DNA from: Pseudomonadota bacterium
Lineage (GTDB): Bacteria > Pseudomonadota > Gammaproteobacteria > Burkholderiales > Gallionellaceae
Direction: 5' to 3'
Assembly (NCBI GenBank): GCA_026399735.1
Contig: JAPLQK010000017.1
Span: 1 to 32,820, forward strand
Length of the DNA: 32,820 nt
Notes under the pieces: generated by a model
Databases searched by the model: none
Told to the model about the DNA's origin: nothing
The model's input: the letters and a program-made list of their open reading frames with translations, nothing else
In this document: piece after piece, positions 11,222-32,820 of the stretch
Position numbering within the stretch: the first letter of the stretch is position 1
Layout: the number at the start of each line of letters is the position of its first letter
Made by a program: the position numbers and the translations under genes

Positions 11222-12787
11222 TTGTACAGAAAAATTGCAGTTTTGCTGCCGCTGGCACTGATGGGTTGCGCCGCAGGCCCTGATTTCAAGCGTCCGGCGG
11301 CGCCGGTTGCAGTCAGCTATACGCCGCAGGCGATGCCGGTGCAGACTTCATCTGCGAATACCTTGCAGGGTAAGGCGCAATCTTTTGTCGCGTCAAAGCA
11401 AATTCCCGCTGACTGGTGGACGCTGTTTCAGTCCGCAAAGCTAAACGTATTGATTGAACGCTCTTTTAAGGCAAATCCTGATATCGAAGCGGCGCAGGCG
11501 GCATTGCATGCCGCGCAGCAAAGCGTCATTGCACAACAGGGATTTTTCTATCCGACGGTGGGCGTGAGTTACTCGCCTTCGCGCAACAAGCTTGCCGGTA
11601 ATATGGGTGGCAACTCGCCCGGTGTGCAGGGCAACGGCACGCTGATTCAAACTTATTCCAATCCGGCAGGGCCGAAATACAACGGTCCGGCCTATTACAA
11701 TTTCCATGTTGCCCAGCTGACCGTGGGTTATGTCCCCGATGTGTTTGGCATGCGGCGCAGGCAGGTTGAGTCGGCACAAGCGCAAGCGGAAATGCAGCAA
11801 ATGCAGTTGCAGGCGACTTATATCACGCTGGCATCAAACGTAGTCGCTGCGGCCTTTCAGGAAGCCAGCGTGCGCGCCCAGTTAACCGCCGTGGAACGCG
11901 TGGTTGCCATCAATCGCGAAAATCTGGACATCATGCGTCGTCAGCTGGTGTTGGGACTATTGGCTGAAATCGATGTGGCGGCGCAGGAAGCCGCGTTAGC
12001 GCAGGCTGAGATGGCGCTGCCGCCGTTGCGTAACCAGCTGGAGCAGACGCGTGATCTGATCCGCGCGCTGGCTGGCAATACGCCCGACAATGATGTGCCG
12101 GAAACATTTGAGTTGAGCGACTTGCATTTGCCTGACGAGTTGCCGTTAAGCCTGCCCTCAAAACTGGTCGAACAGCGCCCCGATGTGCGCATTGCAGAGG
12201 CGCAGTTGCACGATGCCAGCGCGCAATACGGCGTGGCGATTGCCAACCGGTTGCCGCAATTTTCCATTATGGCTGGCATGGGCGGCATGGCCTCGACGCC
12301 GGACTGGATGTTCCGCGCCGGTGGCGGATTTTTTAATCTGGTCGGTAATGTCGCACAGACCATTTTCGATGGCGGCACCTTGCGCGCACAGTCTGACGCC
12401 GCCAAAGAGGCGCTGGTGCAGGCGGGCGCGCAGTATCGCGGCACGGTGATTGCGGCGCTGCAGAATGTGGCCGATACCTTGCACACAATTGCAGCGGACG
12501 CCGATGCACTTAAGGCTGCCGCCGCGTCTGAACAGGCAAGTAAAAAACTGCTGGATTTGACGCGAGAACAATATCATCTGGGTTATGTCAGTTATCAGAA
12601 TCTGTTGCTCGCCGAGCAAAATTATCAGCTGACACGGGTCAGTCTGGTTCAAGCGCAAACATCAAGGCTGGGCGATACCGCTGCGCTTTATCAGGCGCTG
12701 GGCGGCGGCTGGTGGAACCTGTCAGCAAAAACAGATACGAGCACAGTCACCACACCGAATTCGGCATCAGGAGTAAACGCTTTATGA
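11222..12787 (+). CDS. outer-membrane efflux lipoprotein, NodT/TolC family
   Basis: A 521-residue outer-membrane factor. The N-terminus (LLPLALMGCAAGPDF) is a lipoprotein signal, with the lipid-bearing Cys at residue 16. Two OEP-type repeats follow, rich in Ala/Gln heptads, with YVPDVFGMRRRQVESAQAQ in the first half and NRLPQFS, TIFDGGTLRAQ and YQNLLLAEQNY in the second. Trimers of this family form the exit duct of RND pumps. The start is TTG at 11222; no strong ribosome site is seen, but an in-frame extension is blocked and the lipobox spacing fits. It is the first gene of the efflux operon; its stop overlaps the adaptor start (ATGA). Confidence 0.9.
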   Translation: MYRKIAVLLPLALMGCAAGPDFKRPAAPVAVSYTPQAMPVQTSSANTLQGKAQSFVASKQIPADWWTLFQSAKLNVLIERSFKANPDIEAAQAALHAAQQSVIAQQGFFYPTVGVSYSPSRNKLAGNMGGNSPGVQGNGTLIQTYSNPAGPKYNGPAYYNFHVAQLTVGYVPDVFGMRRRQVESAQAQAEMQQMQLQATYITLASNVVAAAFQEASVRAQLTAVERVVAINRENLDIMRRQLVLGLLAEIDVAAQEAALAQAEMALPPLRNQLEQTRDLIRALAGNTPDNDVPETFELSDLHLPDELPLSLPSKLVEQRPDVRIAEAQLHDASAQYGVAIANRLPQFSIMAGMGGMASTPDWMFRAGGGFFNLVGNVAQTIFDGGTLRAQSDAAKEALVQAGAQYRGTVIAALQNVADTLHTIAADADALKAAAASEQASKKLLDLTREQYHLGYVSYQNLLLAEQNYQLTRVSLVQAQTSRLGDTAALYQALGGGWWNLSAKTDTSTVTTPNSASGVNAL

Positions 12788-13938
12788 TTACAAGGTTTAA
12801 AAAGAATAGTATTTTGGTGAGCATTGTGGTGCTGGGCGTTGCCGGCTATTTCATCTGGCAAAAAAGTCATGCGGACGACAAGGCGGCATTACTTCCGCCT
12901 GCAACGCATAAAACTTCCGATACCTTGCGCTTCGATGCGAACGCGCCGCAGTTGTCGTTCATCAGGATCAAGCCGGTCGAGGCTTTTCCTGAACCGCTGG
13001 TAGAACCTTTGAATGCGCGTATTGCCTATGACGATAATCGTACTGCACGGGTTTTTTCGCCGGTTGCAGGCCGGGTTGTCAAAATTCTGGCTGAAACAGG
13101 CAAGCAGGTCGAAAAGGGCGAGGGGATATTGGTTCTGGATTCTCCCGATTATGCGCAGGCGGTTGCTGATAGCAGTAAGGCTGACACTGATCTGCTGCGC
13201 AAACAGGAAGCTCATGAGCGTGCCAAATTGTTGTATGAGGCGAAGGGTATTGCGCGCAAAGATCTGGAGTCGGCCGAGGCGGATGCGCATCAGGCTGATG
13301 CTGAAGCCGCGCGTGCCAAAGCACGTTTGAAAAATCTGAATGGCAATCCGGGCCGTGCTGAGGAACAGTACATACTGATCGCGCCGCATGCGGGTGTGAT
13401 CAGCGAACGTCAAGTCAGTGCAGGCAGCGAGGTGCGTCCGGATGCTCAAAATCCGTTGTTTGTCATTACCGATCCGACCCATGTCTGGGTGCTGGTCGAT
13501 TTGCCGGAACAACAGATCGCTAAGGTCAAAATCGGGCAGGCTGTTATTACGCAGGTGGATGCCTATCCTGACGAGGTATTCACCGGAAAGATCACGACGA
13601 TTGCGGGTGCACTGGATCCTGTCAGCCGGCGCATGCAGGTCAGATGTGAAATTGACAATCCGAAATTGAAACTCAAACCGGAAATGTATGCCCGCGTCAC
13701 GCCGATTGCCGATGTGCATGACAGTCTGCCGCGCATACCGAATACGGCCATTGTCACGCAGGGCCTGTATAGCTATGTGTTCGTGGAACAAGGTGTCGGG
13801 GTGTTGCAGCGCCGCAAGGTATCGCTCGGACTGCAAGGACATGAGGAAAGTTACGTCAGGGAAGGTTTGGCAGTGGGTGAACGCGTCGTGACTGTCGGTG
13901 CGTTGCTGCTTAACGCCGAACTTGCGGGTACCGACTGA
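12784..13938 (+). CDS. RND efflux periplasmic adaptor (membrane fusion protein)
   Basis: A 384-residue adaptor. A single N-terminal membrane helix (about 10-28, SILVSIVVLGVAGYFIW) is followed by a lipoyl/barrel-sandwich half (VFSPVAGRVVKILAETGKQV), a helical hairpin rich in A/E/K, the second lipoyl half (YILIAPHAGVISERQVSAGS), a beta-barrel (VWVLVDLPEQQIAKVKIGQA) and a membrane-proximal domain. This is the CusB/CzcB type. No His-rich metal-binding N-terminal extension is present. The ATG at 12784 overlaps the preceding stop by four bases, with AGGAG about 11 bases upstream. The gene ends one base into the pump gene. Confidence 0.9.
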   Translation: MITRFKKNSILVSIVVLGVAGYFIWQKSHADDKAALLPPATHKTSDTLRFDANAPQLSFIRIKPVEAFPEPLVEPLNARIAYDDNRTARVFSPVAGRVVKILAETGKQVEKGEGILVLDSPDYAQAVADSSKADTDLLRKQEAHERAKLLYEAKGIARKDLESAEADAHQADAEAARAKARLKNLNGNPGRAEEQYILIAPHAGVISERQVSAGSEVRPDAQNPLFVITDPTHVWVLVDLPEQQIAKVKIGQAVITQVDAYPDEVFTGKITTIAGALDPVSRRMQVRCEIDNPKLKLKPEMYARVTPIADVHDSLPRIPNTAIVTQGLYSYVFVEQGVGVLQRRKVSLGLQGHEESYVREGLAVGERVVTVGALLLNAELAGTD

Positions 13939-16900
13939 TGCTTGAAAAACTGATCACCTTCGCGCTGCAACAGCGCGTGTTTGTGCTGGCAGGATCGCTT
14001 GTGCTGCTGATTTTCGGGGTGCGCGCGCTGGACAATCTGCCGATCGAAGCTTTTCCGGATGTGCAGGACGTGCAGGTGCAAATTGTGACCCAGGTACAGG
14101 GCAAGGCGCCTGAAGAAGTCGAGCGCAGTGTGACGCTGCCGATCGAGCGGGAAATGAGCGGCGTGCCGCGCATGACGCAACTACGCTCAGTGTCGATTAC
14201 CGGTTTGTCAGTGGTCACGCTGACCTTTTCCGATAATACCGACGATTATTTTTCCCGCCAGCAAGTGCTGGAAAAATTACAGAACGTGAATCTGCCGCCC
14301 GGTGTGCAGCCAGGCCTTGCGCCGTTGACCAATGCGGTCGGCGAAGTGTATCGCTATGTGCTGGATGTGCCTGAGAGCATGAAACCCTATGAGGTGAGAG
14401 CCTTGCAGGACTGGGTGTTGCGTCCGGCCTTGCGTCAGGTTCAGGGCGTGGCCGATGTGGTCAGTTTCGGCGGTACGGTGAAGGAGTATCAGGTTCGCGT
14501 CAATCCATCGCTGCTGCGTAAATTCAACGTGACCATCGACCAGGTGTCGCAAGCGCTAAGTGCGAATAGCGGCAATGGCGGCGGCGGTGTCTTAAGGCGT
14601 GGCGATGAGGCACTGGTGGTGCGCAGTATCGGCTTGTTCCAGACGTTGGATGACATTTCACGCGTGGTGGTTACGGCTCAGAATGGCAAGACCGTAATGG
14701 TGGGGGATGTCGGTGAAGTGGCGGTCGGCGACCGCCCGCGCTCAGGGATCGTGGCCTTCAACGAACACGACAACGTGGTGCAAGGCATCGTGCAAATGAC
14801 CAAGGGGCAGAACGCCACCAAGGTGGTTGAGGGAATCAAGGAATGCGTTGCCGAACTAACCCCCAAGTTGCCTAAAGGCGTGAAGATCGTTCCCTATTAT
14901 GACCGCACCGAACTTGTGCACCATACCGTGAGTACGGTGAGCGAGAATCTGATTGTCGGTGCGCTGCTGGTGGTCGCCATCCTGATTCTGTTTCTGCGCA
15001 ACTGGTACGCGGCGCTGGCCGTGGCCGCGATTATTCCGCTGGCATTGCTGTTTGCCTTTATTCTGATTGATGCGCGGGGTGTGTCGGCCAATCTGATTTC
15101 GCTGGGCGCGGTGGACTTCGGTATCATCATCGACAGCGCGGTGGTGCTGGTCGAAGCGTTGATGGTTAAGCTGGCGCTGGCGAAGGCAGATGAACTGAAA
15201 CAACACCATTCCTACGGCTGGCGCATCCATCTGATCAAGCAGAATTGTATCGAGATGGGCACGCCGATTCTGTTCTCCAAAGCCATTATTATTTTGGCTT
15301 TCCTGCCTATCTTCACTTTCCAGCGCGTAGAAGGCAAGATATTCTCGCCGGTCGCATTTACCTTGAGTTTCGCATTGCTCGGCGCCATCATTCTGACGCT
15401 GACCCTGTTGCCTGCGCTGCTCAGTTTTGCTGTCAGGAACAAGGATCTGGCCGAGCAGCACAGCGAGTGGATGCATCGGTTGCAGGAGCGTTATCGTAAT
15501 CTGCTGATCTGGGCGGGAAACCGTCGCAAGGTGATCGTCAGCGCATCGGCTGGATTGCTGGTCGTGACGTTGGCGTTGTCACCGCTGTTGGGCAGCGAAT
15601 TTTTGCCCAAGCTCGATGAAGGCAACATCTGGTTGACCATCAGTCTGCCACCTGCGACCGCGCTGGATAAAACCAAGGAGGTCGAGCGCCAGGTGCGCAA
15701 AATACTGAACAGCTATCCCGAGGTCAACAATGTCGCTACGCAAGTGGGACGCCCGGACGACGGCACCGACCCCAAGGGGCCGAACAACCTTGAAATTATG
15801 GCTGATCTTAATCCGCATCAGGGGTGGCGCTTTGCCGACAAGGAGGCGATGATCGCCGATATGACGGCCAAAATTCAGGAAATTCCGGGTGTACCGACCA
15901 ATTTTTCCCAGGTGATTCAGGACAACGTGGAAGAGGCATTGTCCGGCGTTAAGGGTGAGATTTCAGTCAAGATTTTCGGCCCGGATCTGGAAATACTGGA
16001 AAATAAATCCACCCAGGTGGCCGGCATTCTAGCCGGGATACGCGGATCTGCCGACGTGGCGGCGATCAAGGTGGGCGGGCAGACGGAGCTGAACATCACA
16101 CTGGACCGGCAGCGGATGTCACGTTACGGTCTGAATATCAACGACGTGAATGCGACCATTCAGACCGTGCTGGCGAGCAGTACGGTTAACGCCTTTTATG
16201 AGGGTGACCGCCGTTTTGACGTGACGGTACGCATCGCTGAGCGTTACCGCGATGCGGTGGATGATGTGCGCGATCTGCCGATCGCACTACCTAATGGCGG
16301 TTCGATTCCGTTAGGTTCGATTGCCAACATCGAAGTGCGTCAGGGTGCGGCGCGTATCGGGCGCGAGGCGGGTGGCCGGGTCGTGGCTGTCAAGGCTAAC
16401 TTGCTGGGACGCGATCAGGGGGGATTCGTGGCCGAAGCGATGGAAAAAGTGAAGGCACAAGTCACCTTGCCGCCTGGCTATACCATGACTTGGGGCGGGC
16501 AATTTGAAAATCAGCAGCGCGCCATCAAGCGACTCAAAGTGATTGTGCCGTTATCCATTCTGATGATCTTTGTGCTGCTGTTCTGGGCATTCAGATCCAC
16601 ACGCAAAGCCTTGCTGGTGATTTTGATGGTGCCGTTCACGCTGATCGGCGGACTCGCAGGTTTAGGGTTGGCCGGATTGCATCTGTCAGTGTCCGCTGCG
16701 GTAGGATTTATTGCAGTCGCCGGTATTTCGGTGCAGAACGGCGTGATCATGGTCGAGCAGTTTATGGACGGGATGCGTAACGGAAAGTCGCTTAACCTGA
16801 GCGTGATGGAAGGCGCGGTGTCGCGCCTGCGTCCCATTTTGATGACGGCCATGATGGCAGGTATCGGCCTGTTGCCGGCTGCCTTGTCGCACGGTATCGG

Positions 16901-17048
16901 ATCTGAAACGCAGCGCCCGTTTGCCGTGGTGATCGTCGGTGGCATTGTCTCGGCGACGCTGTTCACGCTGCTGCTGCTGCCGCTGCTGTTTCCCGTATTC
17001 GCTGAAGAGGTCAATATCGAACCCGGTCAGCCGCTGACCAGTGAATAA
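13938..17048 (+). CDS. RND efflux pump, CzcA/CusA heavy-metal type
   Basis: A 1036-residue inner-membrane proton/substrate antiporter with the usual RND plan: one membrane helix, a large periplasmic loop, six helices (with VDFGIIIDSAVVLVE), a second periplasmic loop and five more helices. In helix 4 the spacing D393, D399, E406 (DFGIIID...E) matches the proton and metal relay of CzcA-type pumps for divalent cations (Zn, Co, Ni, Cd) rather than the CusA pattern for Cu/Ag. Export of divalent metal ions is therefore the best guess. It starts at ATG 13938 on the adaptor stop (TGATG) and is the last gene of the three-gene operon. No metal-responsive regulator gene is adjacent. Confidence 0.92.
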   Translation: MLEKLITFALQQRVFVLAGSLVLLIFGVRALDNLPIEAFPDVQDVQVQIVTQVQGKAPEEVERSVTLPIEREMSGVPRMTQLRSVSITGLSVVTLTFSDNTDDYFSRQQVLEKLQNVNLPPGVQPGLAPLTNAVGEVYRYVLDVPESMKPYEVRALQDWVLRPALRQVQGVADVVSFGGTVKEYQVRVNPSLLRKFNVTIDQVSQALSANSGNGGGGVLRRGDEALVVRSIGLFQTLDDISRVVVTAQNGKTVMVGDVGEVAVGDRPRSGIVAFNEHDNVVQGIVQMTKGQNATKVVEGIKECVAELTPKLPKGVKIVPYYDRTELVHHTVSTVSENLIVGALLVVAILILFLRNWYAALAVAAIIPLALLFAFILIDARGVSANLISLGAVDFGIIIDSAVVLVEALMVKLALAKADELKQHHSYGWRIHLIKQNCIEMGTPILFSKAIIILAFLPIFTFQRVEGKIFSPVAFTLSFALLGAIILTLTLLPALLSFAVRNKDLAEQHSEWMHRLQERYRNLLIWAGNRRKVIVSASAGLLVVTLALSPLLGSEFLPKLDEGNIWLTISLPPATALDKTKEVERQVRKILNSYPEVNNVATQVGRPDDGTDPKGPNNLEIMADLNPHQGWRFADKEAMIADMTAKIQEIPGVPTNFSQVIQDNVEEALSGVKGEISVKIFGPDLEILENKSTQVAGILAGIRGSADVAAIKVGGQTELNITLDRQRMSRYGLNINDVNATIQTVLASSTVNAFYEGDRRFDVTVRIAERYRDAVDDVRDLPIALPNGGSIPLGSIANIEVRQGAARIGREAGGRVVAVKANLLGRDQGGFVAEAMEKVKAQVTLPPGYTMTWGGQFENQQRAIKRLKVIVPLSILMIFVLLFWAFRSTRKALLVILMVPFTLIGGLAGLGLAGLHLSVSAAVGFIAVAGISVQNGVIMVEQFMDGMRNGKSLNLSVMEGAVSRLRPILMTAMMAGIGLLPAALSHGIGSETQRPFAVVIVGGIVSATLFTLLLLPLLFPVFAEEVNIEPGQPLTSE

Positions 17049-18200: not shown

Positions 18201-18215
18201 TAAAGTTTAACTTTA
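18201..18215. promoter_or_regulatory. 15-bp palindrome overlapping the mgtA -35 box
   Basis: TAAAGTT-T-AACTTTA is a perfect 7-1-7 palindrome whose right arm runs into the -35 hexamer of the mgtA promoter. A palindrome in the same place overlaps the -35 box of the porin promoter (21401-21416), and the two share TAACTTTACA. A dimeric repressor or activator binding both is likely. Confidence 0.55.
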
Positions 18216-18240
18216 CAATCAGCATTCCTTTTGCTATTTT
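18212..18240 (+). promoter_or_regulatory. sigma-70-type promoter of mgtA
   Basis: TTTACA (18212-18217), a 17-base spacer and TATTTT (18235-18240) form a reasonable housekeeping promoter. Transcription would start near 18247 and give a leader of about 264 bases. The porin promoter has the same -35 sequence and the same spacer length. Confidence 0.6.
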
Positions 18241-18246
18241 CCGCGC

Positions 18247-18510
18247 CATCTCGTTCTGTGGAGGGCATCCGTAATGGATACGTGTTCTGGTAGTTGTATC
18301 AAATTAATGGTTGGTATACTCCCGGCAAGATAACGCGCAGAAATTTCTTTGCCGACTATCTTGCCGAGAGCGAGATAGCGGTTCATACCCGGAGCGTTTG
18401 CTCTGACCGCAACAATTCTCTTCGTTTGTTGATGACAAGCACGTTGTGCAGTTGTCACAGCGTTTGTGCCGACCTCTTTCATTCGCCGTATCAAAGCAGA
18501 AAGAGAAATC
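18247..18510 (+). promoter_or_regulatory. structured leader RNA of mgtA (copy A of a shared motif)
   Basis: The 264-base untranslated leader contains, in order: hairpin ATCC-GTAAT-GGAT (18267-18279); conserved TGGTAGTTGT (18288-18297); a 6-bp stem CGGCAA/TTGCCG (18323-18328 with 18349-18354) enclosing ATAACGCGCAG; a 6-bp stem CTATCT/AGATAG (18356-18361 with 18373-18378) with GCCGAGAGC in the loop; GGTAT (18313-18317) can pair with ATACC (18385-18389) around both. A further strong hairpin lies at 18433-18457. Finally CTCTTTC (18474-18480) is fully complementary to GAAAGAG (18499-18505), which covers the ribosome site just before the ATG. The porin leader shares the core with compensatory stem changes. 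This fits a riboswitch-like element that can hide the ribosome site; the ligand is unknown, though Mg2+ is a natural candidate for this gene. Confidence 0.7.
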
Positions 18511-21276
18511 ATGAACCAAACCTTTTTTAAAGAATTTTTCGCCGGATTTATTCGCACACGCGCCATCAGCCGACACTTTCGCCGGCTTGCCATTCTCGAT
18601 GCCGTCAAAGGCGCAACCGTTGCGAGTGACATTCCCGCCGCACTCAGCCACAGGTTAACGGGCGCATCCTATAGCGAAGTCGATCCTCTGCTTGTCGGTC
18701 TCGATACTCATATTGACGGATTGTCTGAAACACAGGCAGAATTTATCCGTGCGCGTGTCGGCAGCAATGAAGTAGAGCATGAGAAGCCGCTCCCTGCCTG
18801 GCTGCATCTTTGGTATTGCTACAAAAATCCATTCAGCCTGTTACTGACGGCTCTGGCCGCTATTTCTTATTTTACCGAGGACATTAAAGCGGCCATTGTG
18901 ATTTCTGCGATGGTGGTTCTGGCCACATTTACCCGCTTTATTCAGGAAGCGCGCTCGAACAATGCGGCGGATAAGCTAAAAGATATGGTGAGTAATTCGG
19001 CAACCGTATTGCGGCGCGATCCCGCTCAAGATGCCGCCGAGGAAGCGCGCCAATACTTTAATGTCGTGCTCCATCCCAAAGGGCCGCGCAAGGCAGAAAT
19101 AGCCATTAAGCTATTGGTTCCTGGTGATCTGGTGCTGCTGTCTGCCGGTGATATGATTCCTGCCGATCTCAGAATTCTGTCTGCCAAAGATTTGTTTGTC
19201 AGCCAGTCGGCCATGACGGGTGAGTCCATGCCTGTGGAGAAATTTGCCGTTCAGCGCATTGCCAACATCAGCAATCCCATCGAACTCGACAATATTCTGT
19301 TTATGGGCACTAACGTGGTCAGTGGTACCGCTAAAGCGGTGGTGGTCACAACCGGGAATAACACCTATTTTGGTGCATTGACGCAACGTGTGACCGCTAC
19401 TACACGCACACTTACCGCCTTCCAGATCGGCATCAACAAAGTAAGTTGGTTATTGATTCGTTTTATGCTGGTTATGACCCCCGTTGTTTTACTTATCAAT
19501 GGCTTTACTAAAGGTGATTGGTTGGAAGCCTCGCTATTTGCTTTGTCCGTAGCGGTGGGTTTAACGCCTGAAATGTTGCCGATGATCGTCACTACGACCC
19601 TCGCTAAGGGGGCCGTGTTGCTTTCACGTCAGAAAGTGATCGTGAAACGTTTGGATGCTATTCAGAATTTCGGCGCGATGGATGTACTGTGCACCGACAA
19701 AACCGGAACATTGACTCAGGACAAAATTTTTCTTGAACGTCATACGGATGTGTTCGGACAAGAATCGGAAACCGTGCTGAATTATGCCTATCTGAACAGT
19801 TACTATCAAACCGGGCTGAAAAATCTTCTGGATGTGGCGGTGCTGGAACATGTGGAAGTTCATCAAGAGTTGGCGATTAACACAGCTTTTCACAAGGTTG
19901 ATGAAATTCCCTTTGATTTTATTCGACGCCGGATGTCTGTCGTGGTTTCTGAACAGGATGGACAGCATCTGCTGATTTGCAAGGGCGCGGTAGAAGAAGT
20001 GCTCGCAATATGTAACCAGGTTCGGCATGGTGATCAAGTTGAGCCGCTGCTGCCGGAAATTCTGGCGCGTATTCGTGCCGTGACCGCCTCTTTAAATGAA
20101 GAAGGGCTACGTGTTGTCGCGGTCGCTGCCAAAGAAATGCCCGCTACCAATAAGTCGTACAGTGTAGCTGATGAACAGGTGATGACGCTGATTGGTTACA
20201 TCGCATTTCTTGATCCACCCAAGGAATCAACCGCTCCAGCTATTAAAGCACTTAAAGAGCATGGCGTAACCGTTAAAGTATTGACCGGCGACAACGAATT
20301 GGTTACCGTTAAAATATGCCGGGAGGTGGGGTTGCCAATAGAAGGCGTACTGCTGGGCGCGGATGTCGAGGCTATGTCGGAAGTCGATCTGGCTGATCGG
20401 GTAGAAAAATGCAATATCTTCGCCAAGTTAACACCTTCACATAAAGAACGTATTGTTCAGGCACTGCGCAGCAATGGACACGTAGTGGGCTTTATGGGGG
20501 ATGGAATCAATGATGCGCCTGCACTGCGAGCCGCCGACATTGGAATTTCAGTGGATACTGCAGTGGATATAGCCAAGGAAGCCGCCGATATTATTCTGCT
20601 CGAACGCAGTTTGATGGTGTTGGAAAAAGGTGTGATTGAGGGACGAAAGACCTTCGCCAACATGCTGAAGTATATCAAGATGACCGCCAGCTCCAATTTT
20701 GGCAATGTATTCTCTGTGCTGGTGGCGAGTGCCTTTTTACCTTTTTTGCCGATGCTGCCGCTACATTTGCTGGTGCAGAATCTACTCTATGACTTCTCTC
20801 AAGTCGCAATTCCGTTTGATAGCGTGGATGAGGAACAGGTTAAGTTTCCGCAAAGCTGGAAGCCGGAGGATATTGGACGCTTCATGATATTTTTTGGCCC
20901 GATCAGCTCCGTTTTCGATATCGCGACTTATTGCTTAATGTGGTTCGTGTTTGCTGCCAACACGCCGGAACAGCAAACCTTGTTCCAGTCCGGTTGGTTT
21001 GTTGAGGGGTTGATGTCGCAGACACTGGTCGTACACATGATACGAACACAAAAAATTCCTTTCATCCAAAGCAAGCCAAGCTGGCAATTGATGAGCGGGA
21101 CCATACTCATCCTTACGGCCGGAATTTACCTGGTGATGGGGCCATTCGCACACTACTTCAAATTGCAAGCCTTACCGCCGATTTACTTCGTGTATCTATC
21201 CATTATTCTGCTGGGTTATATGGTACTGACTCAAGCCATGAAAGGCATCTACACCCGTAAATACGGCTGGCAATAA
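18511..21276 (+). CDS. mgtA: MgtA-type magnesium-transporting P-type ATPase
   Basis: A 921-residue inner-membrane P-type ATPase (P3B type) that in known members brings Mg2+ into the cell. The parts seen are an N-terminal soluble region, NPFSLLLTALAAISYFTEDI for the first membrane pair, the actuator motif MTGESMPVEK, VGLTPEMLPMIVTTTLAKGA in helix 4, the phosphorylation site DKTGTLTQD (Asp396), MGDGINDAPAL in the hinge, and a C-terminal membrane domain with LLVQNLLYDFSQVAIPFD. The ATG at 18511 is preferred to a GTG at 18466, because AAGAGA stands five bases before it and family N-termini fit. Palindrome, promoter and leader RNA upstream are paired with those of the following porin gene. No mgtC or phoPQ genes are visible. 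Confidence 0.93.
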   Translation: MNQTFFKEFFAGFIRTRAISRHFRRLAILDAVKGATVASDIPAALSHRLTGASYSEVDPLLVGLDTHIDGLSETQAEFIRARVGSNEVEHEKPLPAWLHLWYCYKNPFSLLLTALAAISYFTEDIKAAIVISAMVVLATFTRFIQEARSNNAADKLKDMVSNSATVLRRDPAQDAAEEARQYFNVVLHPKGPRKAEIAIKLLVPGDLVLLSAGDMIPADLRILSAKDLFVSQSAMTGESMPVEKFAVQRIANISNPIELDNILFMGTNVVSGTAKAVVVTTGNNTYFGALTQRVTATTRTLTAFQIGINKVSWLLIRFMLVMTPVVLLINGFTKGDWLEASLFALSVAVGLTPEMLPMIVTTTLAKGAVLLSRQKVIVKRLDAIQNFGAMDVLCTDKTGTLTQDKIFLERHTDVFGQESETVLNYAYLNSYYQTGLKNLLDVAVLEHVEVHQELAINTAFHKVDEIPFDFIRRRMSVVVSEQDGQHLLICKGAVEEVLAICNQVRHGDQVEPLLPEILARIRAVTASLNEEGLRVVAVAAKEMPATNKSYSVADEQVMTLIGYIAFLDPPKESTAPAIKALKEHGVTVKVLTGDNELVTVKICREVGLPIEGVLLGADVEAMSEVDLADRVEKCNIFAKLTPSHKERIVQALRSNGHVVGFMGDGINDAPALRAADIGISVDTAVDIAKEAADIILLERSLMVLEKGVIEGRKTFANMLKYIKMTASSNFGNVFSVLVASAFLPFLPMLPLHLLVQNLLYDFSQVAIPFDSVDEEQVKFPQSWKPEDIGRFMIFFGPISSVFDIATYCLMWFVFAANTPEQQTLFQSGWFVEGLMSQTLVVHMIRTQKIPFIQSKPSWQLMSGTILILTAGIYLVMGPFAHYFKLQALPPIYFVYLSIILLGYMVLTQAMKGIYTRKYGWQ

Positions 21277-21400
21277 GGAAGTGTTTTGTGCCAATAAGCT
21301 TCCGGGTTTAATTGACTTCGAGCAGGGGCAGGCGTCCGATTGAGAGTTGGATCCGCCTGGTAATAGCCACGGCGGCTAATATGGCGGAGTGTGTCATCAA
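21277..21400. other. gap after mgtA with possible stem-loop
   Basis: No gene is seen. TCCGCC (21352-21357) and GGCGGA (21383-21388) can pair, with a small GCC/GGC stem inside, which might end the mgtA transcript, but no T-tract follows. The porin promoter begins directly after this stretch. Confidence 0.35.
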
Positions 21401-21416
21401 ACTGTAACTTTACAGT
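21401..21416. promoter_or_regulatory. 16-bp palindrome on the porin -35 box
   Basis: ACTGTAA-CT-TTACAGT is a perfect 7-2-7 palindrome whose right arm contains the -35 hexamer TTTACA. The matching palindrome of mgtA occupies the same place relative to its own -35 box, which suggests a common regulator. Confidence 0.55.
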
Positions 21417-21437
21417 CTTATCATTCTGGCTGATAAT
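21409..21437 (+). promoter_or_regulatory. sigma-70-type promoter of the porin gene
   Basis: TTTACA (21409-21414), a 17-base spacer and GATAAT (21432-21437) are close to the sigma-70 consensus. It aligns base for base with the mgtA promoter over TAACTTTACA. Transcription would start near 21444, with a leader of about 267 bases. Confidence 0.65.
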
Positions 21438-21443
21438 CCGCCC

Positions 21444-21634
21444 GTTATTATTTTGCGGGAATCCCTTGTGGGTACTGATTCAGGTGGTAGTAGTCGCCTT
21501 GTCTACATGGCGATGGTAATGCACACGGCAAAATAACGTGCAGTTCACTGCCGCTACTCGCCGGGTGCAGAGTGGTGGCGTCAAGACCTTAAAGCCGGTC
21601 TCATCAATTCTTCCAGCTACTTAAGTACAGTCTG
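21444..21634 (+). promoter_or_regulatory. structured leader RNA of the porin gene (copy B of the shared motif)
   Basis: The elements of the mgtA leader recur in the same order: GGGAATCC with hairpin CCC-TTGT-GGG (21463-21472); TGGTAGTAGT (21485-21494), which starts 48 bases after the -10 box exactly as in mgtA; stem CGGCA/TGCCG (21526-21530 with 21549-21553) enclosing ATAACGTGCAG; and stem CTACTC/GAGTGG (21554-21559 with 21570-21575) with GCCGGGTGC in its loop. Compared with copy A the second stem has changed on both sides yet still pairs (one G-T wobble), while loop bases are kept. That is the signature of conserved RNA structure. A further hairpin AGACC/GGTCT follows at 21584-21601. Confidence 0.7.
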
Positions 21635-21669
21635 ACTGGATGATTTCCATCAGTTGCTGCTTGTTTTTT
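21635..21669 (+). terminator. possible regulated terminator in the porin leader
   Basis: ACTG-G-ATG (21635-21642) can pair with CATCAGT (21648-21654) as a 7-bp stem with one bulge, and TTGTTTTTT follows at 21661-21669. Upstream, CAGTC can pair with GACTG (about 21628-21638), which would break the terminator stem. This is an attractive but unproven switch between stop and read-through. Confidence 0.4.
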
Positions 21670-21710
21670 ACTTCAAGTGAAATTTCGCTTTCATCAGAAG
21701 GAACGTTTTT

Positions 21711-23081
21711 ATGCACTTTGAAATACCTGGTCGATTTACATTGGCCTCCGCACTATTGGCAACGTTTTTGGGTGGATTTGCAGCGGTAAGTCATGCGGAT
21801 ACGATTGATGAAGAACAGGTTTCGGCTCATGTGCAGATGACCTATAACTGGCAGTATCATCCAGCCTACGGAGCCGCTTACACCGGGCCGAACAGTATCA
21901 TTCCGACTGCTGAAAAAATGTACACCTTTACCACGACAGGATTTTTCGGTTTTCGTCCCTGGCAGGGGGGAGAGCTCTACCTGACGCCTGAGATTTCGCA
22001 GGGGGTGCCATTTTCGACTAATCTGGTGGGTCTGGGTGGATTCACCAACGGGGAGATTACTCGTGCCGCAGGGACGAATCCCACCCTGTATCGGCAAAAG
22101 CTTTTTCTGCGAGAAACGTGGAACAATGGCGGAGAATCACAGCGCGTTGAACCTGGTCAAAACAACCAGATGGCGGGATGGGTGGACAAGAATCGCGTCG
22201 TTCTGACGGTGGGTAATTTTTCCACACTCGATGTGTTTGATCCGAATACCTACGCCAAGGATCCGCGAACCCAGTTCATGAATTGGGGAAACTGGACTTA
22301 TGCCGCCTACGATTATGCTGCGGATGCGCGCGGTTTTGGCTGGGGCGCGGCGGTTGAATGGTACAGGAATGACTGGGTGTTGCGTGCAGGTCGTATGACC
22401 GGGCCCGCCTTGCCCAATATGCTGCCTGTCGATCAGAAAATATTCAATCACTTCGGTGACCAGATTGAGATTGAGCATGAACATTCGCTGTCCGGCCACC
22501 CGGGGAAAGTGCGGGTGCTGGGATGGCGCGACCGGGCCATACTCGCCAGCTTTAGTGATGCGCTTGTCTGGTTAAGGGCCAATCCTAATCCTGCAGGCGG
22601 GCCTTACACCGGGCCCGATGCGCTGATTGCGGTGCGCGGTTCGGAAAAAAATAAATACGGTCTTGGTATTAATGTCGAGCAGGAACTATCTGATAATACT
22701 GGGTTTTTTATGCGCATCATGCAGACGGACGGGCGCACCGAGACTTACGCATTTACCGAAGTGGACGGTTCGTTGTCTGCCGGCGTTATCATCAAGGGCA
22801 ATGCCTGGGGGCGTAGCGAGGACGGAATTGGCGTGTCGTTAATGCGCAATGTGCTGTCGAAGGATCGCCGTCAATTCCTGGCCGCCGGCGGAACTTCATT
22901 CTTTATTGGGGATGGGGCATTAAATTATCGTCCCGAAGATATATTCGAGGGATTTTACAGCTACGGTCTTTACAAGGGCGGATGGCTGACGGCCGACTAT
23001 CAACGCATGCAGAACCCTGCGTTCAATGCCGATCGCGGACCAATTAATATCTATGCCTTGCGTTTTCACGCGGAATTTTAA
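21711..23081 (+). CDS. outer-membrane porin, probably carbohydrate-porin (OprB-like) type
   Basis: A 456-residue outer-membrane beta-barrel. There is a signal peptide (cut after SHA at residue 29), then alternating amphipathic strands with many aromatic residues, and the chain ends in Phe (LRFHAEF), as outer-membrane porins do. Segments such as TFTTTGFFGFRPWQGGELYL, RVVLTVGNFSTLDVFDPNTY, and NWTYAAYDYAADARGFGWGA recall carbohydrate porins. AAGGAA lies 8-9 bases before the ATG. The shared promoter and leader with mgtA suggest its real job is linked to cation supply; in that case the pore would pass Mg2+ or another cation through the outer membrane. The family call is moderately sure and the substrate is not known. 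Confidence 0.75.
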   Translation: MHFEIPGRFTLASALLATFLGGFAAVSHADTIDEEQVSAHVQMTYNWQYHPAYGAAYTGPNSIIPTAEKMYTFTTTGFFGFRPWQGGELYLTPEISQGVPFSTNLVGLGGFTNGEITRAAGTNPTLYRQKLFLRETWNNGGESQRVEPGQNNQMAGWVDKNRVVLTVGNFSTLDVFDPNTYAKDPRTQFMNWGNWTYAAYDYAADARGFGWGAAVEWYRNDWVLRAGRMTGPALPNMLPVDQKIFNHFGDQIEIEHEHSLSGHPGKVRVLGWRDRAILASFSDALVWLRANPNPAGGPYTGPDALIAVRGSEKNKYGLGINVEQELSDNTGFFMRIMQTDGRTETYAFTEVDGSLSAGVIIKGNAWGRSEDGIGVSLMRNVLSKDRRQFLAAGGTSFFIGDGALNYRPEDIFEGFYSYGLYKGGWLTADYQRMQNPAFNADRGPINIYALRFHAEF

Positions 23082-27757: not shown

Positions 27758-30700
27758 ATGTCATCCACTTTTAAATTTCGCCTGGTTGACAACGATAGCG
27801 AAGAATATCTCGCCCAATCACAGGCTATACAGGAAGCCCGTGCGCATCAGGAAGCCGAAATGCAGGCGGGGTTTACTGCGCAGGCGAGAGCGAGGGCCGA
27901 AGCCCACGGACGTGCCATTGCACAGGCTCGTGTGCGTATGGAAATGGAGCTGATTGCGCAGCTGGAAGCCAAATGTCAGGATGAGACGCGGCTCTCCGAA
28001 GTCGCGCAGGGCAGGTTGGAAGTCGAGAAGCAGTTGTCGCACGAGTTGCGTGAAAAACTGCTCGGCGAAATGCGGCTGCAGGAAGAAAATCAGGCCAGAT
28101 TACGCGCCGAGATACAGGCTCAGGAAGAATTGACGCAACGTTTGCAATCCGAACAAATTGCAAGGGCGGCGGCGGAAAACAAGATTCGTGCCGAGCGCGA
28201 ATTGCAGGCGTTGATTGCCCGGCAATATCAGGCAGAGCAGACCTCCTTGCAACGTGCCGAGGCTGAAATACGCACCATCCGGGTTGCGACAGAAAAGCTT
28301 GAGGCTCAGGTCGATCACGAGGTCGCCGAGCGTATGGCGGCTGAGCAATGGCAACTCGCTCAGGCGGAAGAAAAGCTGCAAATTGAAACGCGCCTGAGTG
28401 AGGCGGCGCGTTTGCGGGTAGAAAATGAAGCCGAAGAGTTGCGTCTGGCCAGAGTACGTGCCGATATTGATCAGCATGAGATGGCGCTGATTGCCAAGCG
28501 ACTCGATGCGGAACGCGGCGCTGCCAAAGCCGCAGAAGTTCGCAGCAGACTGGAACAGCAGGCAGCCAGCCTGGCGCAGGAAAAAATTACCACTGACCAC
28601 ACGATTTCACGTGTGCTGCATGAAAAAGTAATTCAGGAACAAAAGCTTGCAACACAGCTTGCCGCGAAGCTGGATACCGAACAGGTGGCGAAAGAAGCTT
28701 TGCTGGCGCGAGTCAACGCCGAATCGCTGGCTTTAGCCGAAATCGAAGCGAAACTGAAAGCCGAGCGCGATGCGGAACAAGCCGCACTGGTGCGGGCGAG
28801 TACAGAGCAGCTGGCCATAATTGCGGCCAATCAACGTAAACAAACTGAAGAGCAATTACGCATTGAGGCTGAGCAGCGGGTGCAGACCGAGCGTCTGGCT
28901 TATAAAGCGGCAATGCAGCGCACTCAGGCGGAACTTGATGCACGTACCGAGGCTGAGCGCAAAGTCAAGGTGGAGCAGGAGGCCGCTGCGTTATTGAAGG
29001 CTCAGGCAGAAGTCGATAAAAAATTGGCTGAGCAACAGGAAGAAACGCAGGCATTGTTGTTGCAGACTGTGCGGGATGCGAATGAACAGCTGAACAGTGA
29101 AAATCTGACCTTTCAGGCGGCGGCGCAAAAGTTGGCGACCGGGCGGGATCAGCTGATTTTTGCCCAGCAACGCGCAGAAGTGGAAATACAGGCAGCGCAA
29201 GCGTTGGAACAGCAGTTGCAAGCTGAAGCGCTGGCAATCAGTACGGCGAATGAACGCCGACTGGCATCAAAACGGGCATTGAGTGCGGCACAGGAAAAAA
29301 ATCGCATCGAAGCGGAACTGCTGATAACCGAGCAGCAAAGAGCGCAGGCTGAGCAGTTGGCCGGGCAGGCTCTGCTGGAAAAATTGCATCTGCAGAACAC
29401 GGTATTGCAAGCAGCGCAGTTGCGTGCAGAAGCGTTAAGTCGTGAAAAGCTGGCGGCTGAACAGAACTTGCAAGCCGAACAGGCGCTGATCAAAGCCGCT
29501 CAACAAAAAACCGTGGCGACGGAACTTTCCAATCAGGCCTTCTTGCGGCGAACTACGCTTGAGTCTGATGCGTTGCGTATTGCACAGGCGCAGTTTGAGG
29601 CAGAAACGCGAGCGATATCCGCAATCGAAGCCAGAATGGCGGATGAGCTGCTTGCGATTGAATCGGACAATCAACGCATCGAAATGGAAGTGCGTGCGCA
29701 GGCAATCGCACAGAAAACACTGCAACTCAACGATCAAGCTGATCTGGATGCGCAAAATCAGGAACAGGCTGCAGTACGTGCACTGAATATCGCGCGGATG
29801 CGTGCCGATACAGAAGCACAGGCTTTGAGGCAGAAAGAGCAGCACATTCATGCCGAAGCGTTGGCGGCGGCAGCTTTAAAGAAGCAAATGAATGAGGCTC
29901 GTTTGCTTCATGAACAAACCTTGCAGCGCGCCGAAAACATGTCCATGTTGCGTGTGGCTGAGGAACAGAAAGCGGTTGAACAGGAAGAAGCGCGGATCCG
30001 CAGCGAAGCACGCGCTTCAGTCGCGGCCAGAAAGCAGGCTGAAGCTGCCAGGGCTGCTACCGGGGTTGCAGCAGAATGTGAGCAGATGGCGCTGCAGCTG
30101 GCCGCGCAGGAACAGCAGCGTCTGGCGCATGAGCGGGCGCTGGAGATTCAGCTGGCGCAACGTGTCGCACTTGCGTCGGAAGCGAATGCAGCTTTGCAGG
30201 CGCGAGTCATGGCGGAGCAACAGGCATGCGAGGCTGAACAGGCAAAAATAGCAGCAGCGCAACAGGCTATGGATCTGGCTCATGCGCATGAAGTCGCGCA
30301 AGGTCTGGCAATTGAGGCGGAACAGGAAAAGATTCGCAGCGAACAGTCGGCCATCGCTGCACTGAGTCAACTGGAGGAAATTTCCAAAGCCGCGCGGCAG
30401 GTAGCGCTTGAACGTGAGCAGATGGCAAAGCGCTTGATCGAACAGGAGCAGCTGCGTCTGGCGCACGAGCGCGAATTAGAGGCAGCGCTGGTGCAAAGAA
30501 CCGCCCTGGAGGCTGACGCCGTTGCTGCCGTGCAGGCGCATCTTCAGGCGGAGCAGCAGGCCTGTGAAGCTGAACAGGCGAAAATAGCCATTGAACAGCA
30601 GGCGCATCAACAGGCTTCTGCACACGAAGCATTGCAGCGACAGATGGCTGACGCCCTGCAGGCGCAGTTGCGCAGTGAAGCGTCGGCAGTTCAGCTCATG

Positions 30701-32820
30701 CAGCAAAAGGTTCAGGCTGCCGAGGCCGCCAGATTGGCCGCTGTGGAATGCGAACAATTTGCACAGCGTTTGGCAGAACAAGAGCAACAGCGTCTGGCAT
30801 ACGAGTGTGAATTGCAGGCCGGAGTCGAGCAGCATGCCGTACTTGAAATGGAAGCCGTTGCTGCCGTGCAGGCGCGTGTTCTTGCGCAGCAGCAGGCCTG
30901 TGAGGCAGAACAGCTGAAAATAGTCGCGGAACAGCAGGCACGTCATCTGGCGCTTGAGCGCGAAACAGCACAAGGTCTGGCGATTGAAGCCGAACAGCAG
31001 AAAATGCGTGTTGAAGCAGAGGTGCTTGCTGCAATGCAGCAACGAGAACAGCTGGCATTGCAACTGGCCGAACAGGAGCGGCAACAGCTGGCGCAAATCG
31101 AGCAGCGTGCCGCACTCGAAATGGAAGCCGCTGCTGCAGTCGGGGCGCGGCTTGCAGCCCAGCAGCAGGCATGTGAGGCCGAACAGCTGAAAATAGCTGC
31201 GGAAAAACAGGCGCAGCAACAGGCATCTGATTATGAAGCAGTGCAACGACAAGCTCTGGCGTCCGAACAGGAAAAAATTCGTCGCGAAGAATCGGCAATC
31301 ACGGCGATGCAGCAACGCGTTCATATTGCCGAGGTAGCCAGACTGGCAGCGCTGCAGCGTGAGCAGATGGAAAATCAGCTGGCCGGGCAAGCCGGGAAGC
31401 AGTTCGAGCTGGAGCGGGATTTACAAGCCAAAATTACGCATCAACAATCGCTTGCTGACGCAGCCAGGCAGGCTGTGCTGGCTCGTCTGGAAGCGGTGCG
31501 GCTGGCCGCCTGTGCCGAGCAGGAAAAATATGCCGCAGCAGAGCAGGCAAGACTGCAAGCCTGTGCACATGAAGAGGCCGACCGGCTGGCTGCGGAAGCC
31601 TGCCAGGAAAAAATTCGTCATGAAGAATCGGCTATTGCAGCAATACAGCAACACTTGCAAATTGCCGAAACCGCCAGGCTGGCAGCGTTTGAACGCGAAC
31701 AGCTGGCATTGCAGCTGGCCGGGCAGGAGTCGTTACGGCTGGCTCACGAGCGTGAATTGCAGGCGCAGCAGGAATTGCGCGCCGCACTTGAAACGTCGGC
31801 TGATGCCGCAGTGCAAGCCTGTCTGGTCGCCGAGCAGCAGGCATGCGCTGCTGAACAGGCAAAAATAGCGGCAGCACAACATGCCAGGCAGCTGGCTGAG
31901 GCGCATGAGGCGGCGCAACGTCAGGCGTTTGATGCCGAACAGCAGCAAACTCTTCAGGAGGAGTCGGCTATTGCAGCGCTGGCGCTACGTGCGCAGCATG
32001 CTGAATCGGCCCGTCTGGCAGCGTTGGCGCGCGAGCAGATGGAGAATCAGTTGGCCAGGCAGGAGCGGCAGCTGGCCGAGCGTGAACGCACATTACATGA
32101 AAATTTATCGTATAAACAAACAATTGCAGAGAAATCTGCGCAGGCAAAGCAGGACAGGATTGAAGCCGAGCAACATTTAATTGAGGCGGAGCAGGGGAAA
32201 TTGTCTGCCGAACAGGCGGCAAAGCGCCAGGCGGATGAGCAACTTATTGTCCTGCTAAAACAGTCAGAGCAAGCAGCGAGTGAAATTACAGAATTTGGCG
32301 CGCATCGCGCCGCCATGCAGCAACTGACCGTGCAGTCTGAACAGGCGAAGCTTCAGGCAGAGCAGCTTGAACTCAGAATAGCGGCTGAACTGGCTGCGAC
32401 TGCGGAACAAGCTGAACAAGTCGCCGTGCAGAGGCAGCAGGAGCAGCAGCAGTTGCTCCATCTGCAGCAGTCAAGGCTGGTAGATGAGCAGCAGTTGTTC
32501 GGGCAGATGGAACAGCGTCTGCAAGCTGAGACGGAAGCCCATGCGGCAACGGCAGAACATATTTCAGCCGAACAGAGGGCGACGGTCGCGGCTCAGGAAA
32601 AGGCGGTGCTGGAAAAACAGGTGGCACTGCAGTGTCTGCAGCTGGCCGAATTGGACGAGCAGGCGAATCAACAGCTGCAAGTTCATATCGAACATTTTCG
32701 CATCGATCTGCTGCCGCACCAGATTCAGGCGCAAAAGCGCAAATCCGGAAAATTGCTCAAGGTGGCAGCAGGCTTGCTTTCGGCTGCGGTATTGCTGGGT
32801 TTTTCATGGCCATTTTTTAC
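27758..32820 (+). CDS. giant coiled-coil protein with membrane segment (3' end beyond window)
   Basis: From ATG 27758 (AAGG about 6 bases upstream) one frame stays open to the window end, 1687 codons. The first 15 residues (SSTFKFRLVDNDSEE) are ordinary; then almost everything is Ala/Glu/Gln/Arg/Leu in heptad pattern, that is, an extremely long coiled coil. I found no proline before residue 1653 and very few Gly or aromatic residues. Near the end come HFRIDLLPHQIQAQKRKSGK and then a hydrophobic stretch from residue 1669 (VAAGLLSAAVLLGFSWPFF), a probable membrane helix with basic residues before it, so the coiled coil should lie in the cytoplasm. What follows the helix is outside the window. 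No signal peptide is present. The family is not recognised; a cytoskeletal, scaffold or envelope-anchoring role is only a guess. Confidence 0.85.
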   Translation, partial: MSSTFKFRLVDNDSEEYLAQSQAIQEARAHQEAEMQAGFTAQARARAEAHGRAIAQARVRMEMELIAQLEAKCQDETRLSEVAQGRLEVEKQLSHELREKLLGEMRLQEENQARLRAEIQAQEELTQRLQSEQIARAAAENKIRAERELQALIARQYQAEQTSLQRAEAEIRTIRVATEKLEAQVDHEVAERMAAEQWQLAQAEEKLQIETRLSEAARLRVENEAEELRLARVRADIDQHEMALIAKRLDAERGAAKAAEVRSRLEQQAASLAQEKITTDHTISRVLHEKVIQEQKLATQLAAKLDTEQVAKEALLARVNAESLALAEIEAKLKAERDAEQAALVRASTEQLAIIAANQRKQTEEQLRIEAEQRVQTERLAYKAAMQRTQAELDARTEAERKVKVEQEAAALLKAQAEVDKKLAEQQEETQALLLQTVRDANEQLNSENLTFQAAAQKLATGRDQLIFAQQRAEVEIQAAQALEQQLQAEALAISTANERRLASKRALSAAQEKNRIEAELLITEQQRAQAEQLAGQALLEKLHLQNTVLQAAQLRAEALSREKLAAEQNLQAEQALIKAAQQKTVATELSNQAFLRRTTLESDALRIAQAQFEAETRAISAIEARMADELLAIESDNQRIEMEVRAQAIAQKTLQLNDQADLDAQNQEQAAVRALNIARMRADTEAQALRQKEQHIHAEALAAAALKKQMNEARLLHEQTLQRAENMSMLRVAEEQKAVEQEEARIRSEARASVAARKQAEAARAATGVAAECEQMALQLAAQEQQRLAHERALEIQLAQRVALASEANAALQARVMAEQQACEAEQAKIAAAQQAMDLAHAHEVAQGLAIEAEQEKIRSEQSAIAALSQLEEISKAARQVALEREQMAKRLIEQEQLRLAHERELEAALVQRTALEADAVAAVQAHLQAEQQACEAEQAKIAIEQQAHQQASAHEALQRQMADALQAQLRSEASAVQLMQQKVQAAEAARLAAVECEQFAQRLAEQEQQRLAYECELQAGVEQHAVLEMEAVAAVQARVLAQQQACEAEQLKIVAEQQARHLALERETAQGLAIEAEQQKMRVEAEVLAAMQQREQLALQLAEQERQQLAQIEQRAALEMEAAAAVGARLAAQQQACEAEQLKIAAEKQAQQQASDYEAVQRQALASEQEKIRREESAITAMQQRVHIAEVARLAALQREQMENQLAGQAGKQFELERDLQAKITHQQSLADAARQAVLARLEAVRLAACAEQEKYAAAEQARLQACAHEEADRLAAEACQEKIRHEESAIAAIQQHLQIAETARLAAFEREQLALQLAGQESLRLAHERELQAQQELRAALETSADAAVQACLVAEQQACAAEQAKIAAAQHARQLAEAHEAAQRQAFDAEQQQTLQEESAIAALALRAQHAESARLAALAREQMENQLARQERQLAERERTLHENLSYKQTIAEKSAQAKQDRIEAEQHLIEAEQGKLSAEQAAKRQADEQLIVLLKQSEQAASEITEFGAHRAAMQQLTVQSEQAKLQAEQLELRIAAELAATAEQAEQVAVQRQQEQQQLLHLQQSRLVDEQQLFGQMEQRLQAETEAHAATAEHISAEQRATVAAQEKAVLEKQVALQCLQLAELDEQANQQLQVHIEHFRIDLLPHQIQAQKRKSGKLLKVAAGLLSAAVLLGFSWPFF
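30080..32206 (+). repeat. in-frame 336-bp (112-residue) repeats in the coiled-coil gene
   Basis: An anchor motif like EQQACEAEQAKIA recurs with its first codon at 30215, 30551, 30887, 31160, 31496, 31832 and 32168. Steps are 336, 336, 273, 336, 336 and 336 bases. The fifth and seventh anchors are degenerate (VRLAACAEQEKYA, EQHLIEAEQGKLS) but fall exactly on the lattice. The short step is 63 bases (21 residues) less. A second motif (EQMALQL / EQMAKRL) keeps the same 336-base step between 30080 and 30416. 112, 91 and 21 are all multiples of seven, so the heptad register is never lost. This points to growth by unequal recombination under selection for an unbroken coil. Confidence 0.85.

Follow-up and report, generated by a model that had tools for sequence, protein, structure and literature searches.

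A leader with an upstream open reading frame shared by mgtA and a porin gene: a candidate translation-dependent attenuator for magnesium uptake

In enterobacteria, efficient reading of the short upstream open reading frames (uORFs) corL and mgtL at high Mg2+ is reported to shut off corA and mgtA; Rho is involved for corA and for Salmonella mgtA, two exclusive folds are reported for corL and exclusive stem-loops for mgtL, and whether RNA or translation acts as the Mg2+ sensor is not fully understood (excerpted text of PMC11552253). The Salmonella mgtCBR leader is described as an attenuator with uORFs before mgtC (excerpted text of PMC3641672), and the M-box (ykoK) riboswitch as preceding mgtA, corA, mgtE and Nramp-related genes, some of the Nramp-related carriers under Mg2+ riboswitches being transporters of Mg2+ (excerpted text of PMC4072509). 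Here we analyze a leader that occurs twice on the forward strand of a 32,820-nucleotide stretch of DNA, referred to as the window, from a Gallionellaceae bacterium (assembly GCA_026399735.1, contig JAPLQK010000017.1, positions 1 to 32,820), once upstream of mgtA (copy 1) and once upstream of a porin gene (copy 2).

The leader of E. coli and Salmonella corA resembles ours in placing a uORF (corL, also ysgD) before a Mg2+ transporter gene and in its TTG start, exclusive folds and Rho being reported for corL, and the leader of E. coli and Salmonella mgtA in placing a uORF (mgtL) before mgtA, with exclusive stem-loops and Rho reported for Salmonella mgtL (excerpted text of PMC11552253). As judged from the sequence, a short open reading frame (ORF) of this type 5′ of a Mg2+ transporter gene is present in all 58 of the leaders that we aligned. 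The mgtCBR leader differs in having two uORFs, and is likened to ours by description and not by sequence; unlike the M-box, the present element has no match in Rfam and contains a uORF.

We consider that each leader is probably, at odds of roughly two in three, a translation-dependent attenuator for a Mg2+-uptake gene. The uORF is kept in all 58 leaders and ends with a stop codon within, or next to, one arm of an RNA switch, an arrangement that points toward a translation-dependent attenuator of the corL/mgtL kind. Mg2+ is named as the putative signal mainly on account of the range of Mg2+-type genes that the leader precedes. Since related leaders stand 5′ of several different magnesium-uptake genes elsewhere among bacteria, the leader appears to be a widespread magnesium-uptake switch.

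Anatomy and alternative pairing of the leader

From 5′ to 3′ the element consists of a Shine-Dalgarno (SD) site, a uORF with hairpin P0 at its start and hairpin P1 inside it, and three segments, of which segment 2 is able to pair either with segment 1, formed by the uORF end and stop (the 1:2 helix), or with segment 3 (P3). In copy 1, the SD site GGAGG of the uORF lies at 18260..18264, followed by P0 (ATCC/GGAT, 18267..18279), which holds the uORF start codon in its loop and 3′ arm. The uORF, placed from the sequence and the alignment of 58 leaders, runs from ATG through 19 codons (MDTCSGSCIKLMVGILPAR) to TAA at 18274..18333, and P1 (GTATCAA/TTGGTAT, 18296..18317), recognized by eye, lies within it and is absent from the minimum-energy fold of the whole leader. 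Segment 1, CGGCAAGATAACGCGCAG (18323..18340), comprises the last codons, the stop and the bases that follow, and is engaged in the 1:2 helix in the minimum-energy fold. Covariation and folding place segment 2, which can serve as 5′ arm of P3 or as 3′ arm of the 1:2 helix, at 18348..18366, and covariation places segment 3, GCGAGATAGCGG, the 3′ arm of P3, at 18370..18381.

Copy 2 has the same layout. Its P0 (CCC/GGG, 21463..21472) is seen in sequence, covariation and fold; its uORF, placed in the same way as that of copy 1, starts with GTG and ends with TAA after 22 codons (21468..21536), reading (M)GTDSGGSSRLVYMAMVMHTAK; and its P1 (TCGCC/GGCGA, 21494..21513) is present in the minimum-energy fold. 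Segment 1, CGGCAAAATAACGTGCAG (21526..21543), was located by an exact pattern, and the P3 arms, segments 2 (21549..21562) and 3 (21567..21580), by covariation and fold.

A sequence-only reading of the window had recognized parts of this element, namely a shared block, a first stem CGGCA/TGCCG and a second stem, and had proposed a functional leader RNA. The block is where it was said to be, as TGGTAGTTGT at 18288-18297 and TGGTAGTAGT at 21485-21494, and starts 48 bases after the −10-like hexamer in both copies, since these hexamers end at 18240 and 21437. What had been taken for the motif is real, being made up of fragments of a larger element, and the block lies inside the uORF, which had been missed: it begins 14 (copy 1) and 17 (copy 2) bases after the uORF start codon, a difference of one codon. 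The second stem is P3, CTATCT../..AGATAG in copy 1 and CTACTC/GAGTGG in copy 2, ending 132 and 135 bases 5′ of the start codons at 18511 and 21711, and its covariation is upheld in the wider family alignment. The strings of the first stem, CGGCAAGATAACGCGCAG...TGCCG and CGGCAAAATAACGTGCAG...TGCCG, are present at 18323-18354 and 21526-21553, and 'CGGCAAGATAACG' corresponds to the last codons and stop of the uORF. We rejected CGGCA/TGCCG as an independent helix: taken alone, its five pairs do not covary more than in shuffles, and they form only the edge of the longer alternative helix.

In the alignment of 58 leaders (A4, the matches aligned to the covariance model R1 described below, including its own 25 sequences), 93.3% of the cells of P0, P1 and P3 taken together are paired, against at most 46.7% in slid versions; 20 of the 22 pairs have two-sided changes, with 118 such cells versus 27.1 expected from shuffles. 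P0 by itself has 88.3% of its cells paired and two-sided changes in 3 of 4 pairs, and P1 has them in 6 of 6. Examined by eye, the arms of P0 around the start codon vary across leaders as ATCC/GGAT, ACCC/GGGT, GTCC/GGAC and CTCC/GGAG, and replacement of Gly by Asp or Glu at codon 2 is mostly accompanied by a change on the opposite strand of P0. The 1:2 helix has 78.4% of its cells paired (slid versions, at most 45.7%) and 46 two-sided cells versus 24.2 expected; minimum-energy folding selects it both for copy 1 (z −3.7) and for a Pseudomonas leader (z −3.1).

The uORF start in the 58 leaders is GTG in 40, ATG in 14 and TTG in 4, and the first in-frame stop (TAA 43, TAG 12, TGA 3) comes after 13-22 codons, always between −8 and +7 bases from segment 1 (58/58). 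Within a wider span of −16 to +12 bases, the first stop is found in frame in all 58 leaders, in frame +1 in 26 and in frame +2 in none. An SD-like string precedes the start in 56 of 58 leaders; for one of the 58 (L107), where the alignment slips by one base, the start was placed by hand. The peptides are Ser/Cys/Gly-rich, with MGTCSSDS[SC]RPVSVTGxx[SLP]AR as a frequent form, and comparison with NCBIfam and Pfam returned no match save one weak HrpT row (E 0.03). Among four same-genus loci whose mgtA is 87-91% identical, three carry uORFs 5′ of mgtA (MDTCSSNSSRYTSLVGILLAR, MDTCSGHCSHYIPTVGILPAR and MDTCSSNSSRYALMAGRLLAR), and in the fourth (L023) the contig stops 137 bases before mgtA. The uORF is also intact in 28 of 30 further distinct matches to a second model (R2, below), none identical to A4 rows; the exceptions are L222 (leader at 526-626), where an mgtA remnant lies alongside and the frame breaks off after three codons, and L223, a false match (E 5e-4). 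Two further observations concern these leaders. In those of Herbaspirillum type (L071, L086, L087, L090, L095 and L100) the uORF stops at codon 16 and the later TAA of segment 1 is changed, and in the Pseudomonas locus L186 the leader has only residues 811-921 of mgtA left downstream.

In the mechanism that we propose, a ribosome would enter at the GGAG-type site, start inside P0 and read the uORF of 13-22 codons; with the stop in or next to segment 1, the terminating ribosome would cover this segment and segment 2 would pair with segment 3 (P3). With poor reading of the uORF, or none, segment 1 would be free and the 1:2 helix would form, and one of the two folds would let RNA polymerase, or ribosomes, proceed to mgtA or the porin gene. 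By analogy with corL and mgtL, high Mg2+ would favor efficient reading of the uORF and P3 (OFF), low Mg2+ poor reading and the 1:2 helix (ON), and the likely output would be termination by Rho within the C-rich bases that follow P3. In 51 of 57 leaders the stretch 3′ of P3 has a higher C/G ratio than the motif (medians 1.24 vs 0.92; L024, on the minus strand, was left out and some gene starts were placed by hand), which is compatible with Rho and proves nothing.

Distribution over genomes and target genes

We scanned named genomes for MgtA and kept the best 80 loci. A first regular expression, biased toward ORFs, found the uORF in 49 of these loci, one of them spurious, in Pseudomonas, Herbaspirillum, Glaciimonas, Thermomonas and others. 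To lessen this bias, a covariance model (R1) was built from 25 of the leaders so found, without the window copies; L025, L114 and L104 were removed before the selection of A1 and A2, and leaders more than 93% alike before A1 to A3. The two leaders of the window are homologous: R1 scores them at 45.5 and 44.5 bits (E 1.2e-8 and 7e-9, 946 kb searched). An exact pattern for both leaders matched only these two sites in 61 genomes, and its reverse nowhere; it was too strict, with only the genome of the window matched among the 61.

At E ≤ 0.01, R1 finds 61 of the 80 mgtA loci, its own 25 sequences included. On 38 whole genomes, which had been selected for having mgtA yet were searched whole, it gave 27 matches at E ≤ 1e-3 in 25 genomes, 25 of them adjoining mgtA, porin or mgtC; the other two precede a further porin gene (L154, from the same genome as L074) and a family that Pfam does not name (L155). 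Most R1 matches with E between about 0.02 and 1 were due to chance. A class-wide R1 search of 369 genomes returned only the window's own genome, a weak negative because only 9 candidates were scored per genome. The second covariance model, R2, was built from A4 and searched in 40, 41 and 41 genomes. Once L213, whose letters are identical to those of L211, had been removed, 30 matches were counted, preceding mgtA (13), CorA (5), porin (3), mgtC (2), Nramp-family (2) and ABC permease (2) genes; the remaining three are at a weak MgtC-like ORF below the cut-off, at an mgtA remnant with mgtC, and a false match. In Pseudomonas, 18 of 40 genomes carry the leader, in a single copy and always at mgtA, and the DNA of the mgtA leader is common to 3 of 41 genomes of the window's genus, its own genome counted. 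The sequence-only reading's notion of a functional cis-acting RNA holds in so far as the leader is kept in relatives, covaries and precedes cation transporter genes; the riboswitch that it named is not supported in that form.

For the porin, Nramp and ABC proteins behind the leader, Mg2+ transport is a candidate function. The Nramp-family carriers behind the leader in L191 and L194 (PF01566, far under the MntH cut-off) may be NrmT-like Mg2+ carriers, and the ABC transporter permease (BPD_transp_1) that the leader precedes in two genomes (L197, 1936-3120; L199, 1800-3110) is a candidate for an unrecognized Mg2+ uptake system. The family without a name, with the pattern ARP[ML][VIT]TDDA.IV.A.ACQ.E.W, follows the leader in L062, L103, L105 and L155, and in the first three lies between leader and mgtA; its members matched nothing in Pfam (4 members) or NCBIfam (L062). 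In one contig (G057:C308), two leaders with the same letters, L211 and L213, run in opposite directions on either side of mgtA at a distance of about 3.7 kb, either an assembly artefact or an inverted duplication.

In the window, mgtA (18511..21276) codes for a Mg2+-translocating P-type ATPase of 921 amino acids (TIGR01524, 1337.8 bits) and is followed after a gap of 434 bases by the gene of an OprB-family porin of 456 amino acids (21711..23081; PF04966, 96.1 bits), each gene with its own promoter-like site and leader. These sites are consensus matches: TTTACA-17-TATTTT at 18212..18240 for copy 1, with TG preceding the second hexamer (1 found, 0.5 expected), and TTTACA-17-GATAAT at 21409..21437 for copy 2 (1 found, 0.6 expected). 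By eye, a CTTTAC..TTTTG[CT]TA arrangement occurs at the equivalent place in L021, L022 and L024. The nearest relatives of copy 1 are same-genus mgtA leaders (0.74) and that of copy 2 is a porin leader, in L045 (0.70). Since each copy is nearest to different leaders, we dropped the idea that copy 2 arose from copy 1 by recent duplication; the two are probably old paralogues. R1 detects no leader at any of five near porin relatives (L007, L008, L009, L012 and L018), and of the adjoining mgtA and porin genes in L042, the leader is at mgtA only. Elsewhere in the window, heavy-metal RND efflux genes of CusA/CzcA type (NodT-family outer membrane factor, adaptor and pump; 11222-17048) lie just 5′ of the mgtA region, and positions 28100-31868 hold numerous overlapping ORFs in several frames, Arg/Gln/Leu-rich and repetitive-looking.

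Weighing the attenuator against other explanations

Several results weigh against the attenuator as we draw it. The leader is not at every mgtA of this kind (61 of 80 loci), and R1 found nothing at E ≤ 1 in the same-genus mgtA loci L025 and L026 (73 and 70% identity). In a plain alignment of 38 leaders made with MAFFT, RNAalifold recovered P0 and the base of P3, missed P1 and added two other short helices, and the pair counts from A4 lean toward the model because A4 is fitted to it. In its 11-pair form the 1:2 helix beats shuffles on cells paired and on score, and not clearly on pairs and types (153 and 220 of 500 shuffles equal it); in copy 2 this helix is weak (−8.7 kcal/mol), the lowest-energy fold shows P3, and the folding z is only −1.73. 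Intrinsic terminators were found in neither copy's leader. Selection on the peptide was not seen in codon-position variation (heterozygosity 0.212/0.151/0.205, 25 leaders) or in the ratio of synonymous to non-synonymous changes, 28:62 in frame versus 25:65 and 19:73 (25 leaders).

Because these codon statistics bear no sign of peptide selection, part of the conservation lies at the RNA level. In a rival explanation, the leader is an ion-sensing riboswitch: the conserved GGTACTTGTTCGAGTGACAGT around P1 would belong to an aptamer for direct binding of Mg2+ or another ion, and the ORF would be secondary or help through ribosome traffic only. The covariation of P0, P1 and P3 would be expected of such an RNA, and so would first codons whose nucleotides are conserved beyond what the amino acids require. 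Although hosts such as Pseudomonas have GC-rich genomes, all 48 Cys codons at position 4 are TGT and all 46 Ser codons at position 8 are AGT (52 leaders; the regular-expression matches L025 and L114 were left out). The start and stop codons, however, vary in type and the uORF in length, while frame, SD site and stop position stay, none of which a pure aptamer needs; and in the Herbaspirillum type the stop has moved upstream and the segment 1 TAA is lost. No Rfam family matches either, with no match to the M-box or any riboswitch in the whole window at gathering thresholds, only rows far under the families' gathering scores for the two leaders at relaxed thresholds, and nothing besides one tRNA-Sec in the loci of eight relatives. 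We regard a riboswitch of this kind as rather unlikely. With no sign of amino-acid selection, yet with TGT and AGT codons fixed, the frame looks conserved, the peptide much less so, and the RNA sequence itself is constrained.

Another reading, which we put forward as doubtful speculation, is that the same 60 bases might be both an ion-sensing fold and a translated uORF, Mg2+ being read by the RNA (P0, P1 and the first codons) and by the ribosome. The family, in Pseudomonas, relatives in the Burkholderiales and others, would then govern mgtA, mgtC and corA together with carriers of Nramp and ABC type and a porin dedicated to Mg2+, and enterobacterial corL would be an outlying branch of it.

The Ser/Cys/Thr-rich N-terminus, the frequent MGTCSSDS and the frequent C-terminal AR raise the idea that a leader or arrest peptide responds to an amino acid or another small molecule and controls transporters by chance. 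We find this very improbable, as the targets are mostly Mg2+-uptake families and not Ser/Cys metabolism, diverged peptides such as VDSSPSSRSCIGS and LGSPYSDMRPSLHGRLAR lack both the Cys pattern and a common C-terminus, and peptide-level selection was not detected. Least credible of all, a structured 5′ untranslated region that serves only mRNA stability or translation start, with no sensing, would agree with the strong hairpins near the 5′ end and the lack of a terminator, but conserved mutually exclusive pairing and the restriction to Mg2+-type genes suggest regulation.

Relation to corL and mgtL, and significance

Of the two enterobacterial leaders to which we liken the proposed attenuator, mgtL is not the same element by sequence, and the comparison concerns mechanism: the K-12 mgtL peptide is proline/acid-rich and the present peptides Ser-rich, and R2 gave no row at mgtL, the leader that Rfam names Mg_sensor, on its own strand. 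In E. coli, corL (annotated ysgD; L224, 2719-2775) reads (M)DTPSRYWLTILSSRINS from TTG; the K-12 frame starts (M)DTPSR, resembling VDSPSSR.. in the present family, and of the 18 bases that follow its start codon 12 agree with a family member, tied first to fourth among 1151 NTG sites. R2 places a match at E. coli corL at the right place and weakly (2.4 bits, E 4.4). These resemblances in sequence are suggestive of E. coli corL as a distant relative of the leader family and do not establish it. With corA matched at E ≤ 1e-60 in 20 of 229 Gammaproteobacteria genomes, the window's included, R2 gave one weak partial row only (8.2 bits) across the 20 corA loci taken from genomes other than the window's; a uORF in the corA leader of L238, MDSTPPSCVLSATPVTV, is a mere lead.

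Among the literature matches listed, whose coverage is thin for most subscription journals and preprints, there was no description of the present leader, and because coverage is incomplete we use 'undescribed' in the sense of not found in the literature searched. Those matches likewise held nothing on leader-level control of mgtA in Pseudomonas or Burkholderiales; as peptide strings, 'MGTCSS' returned nothing, and 'TCSSDS' and two others returned one crustin paper.

Control of Mg2+ uptake through uORFs has been studied in enterobacteria, and the present family has its own anatomy and many natural variants, so that it would permit a comparative test of whether the RNA or the ribosome is the Mg2+ sensor. 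The leader also marks candidate Mg2+ carriers, among them an OprB-type porin, an Nramp-type carrier, an ABC permease and a family without a name, and it may offer a native Mg2+ reporter for Pseudomonas.

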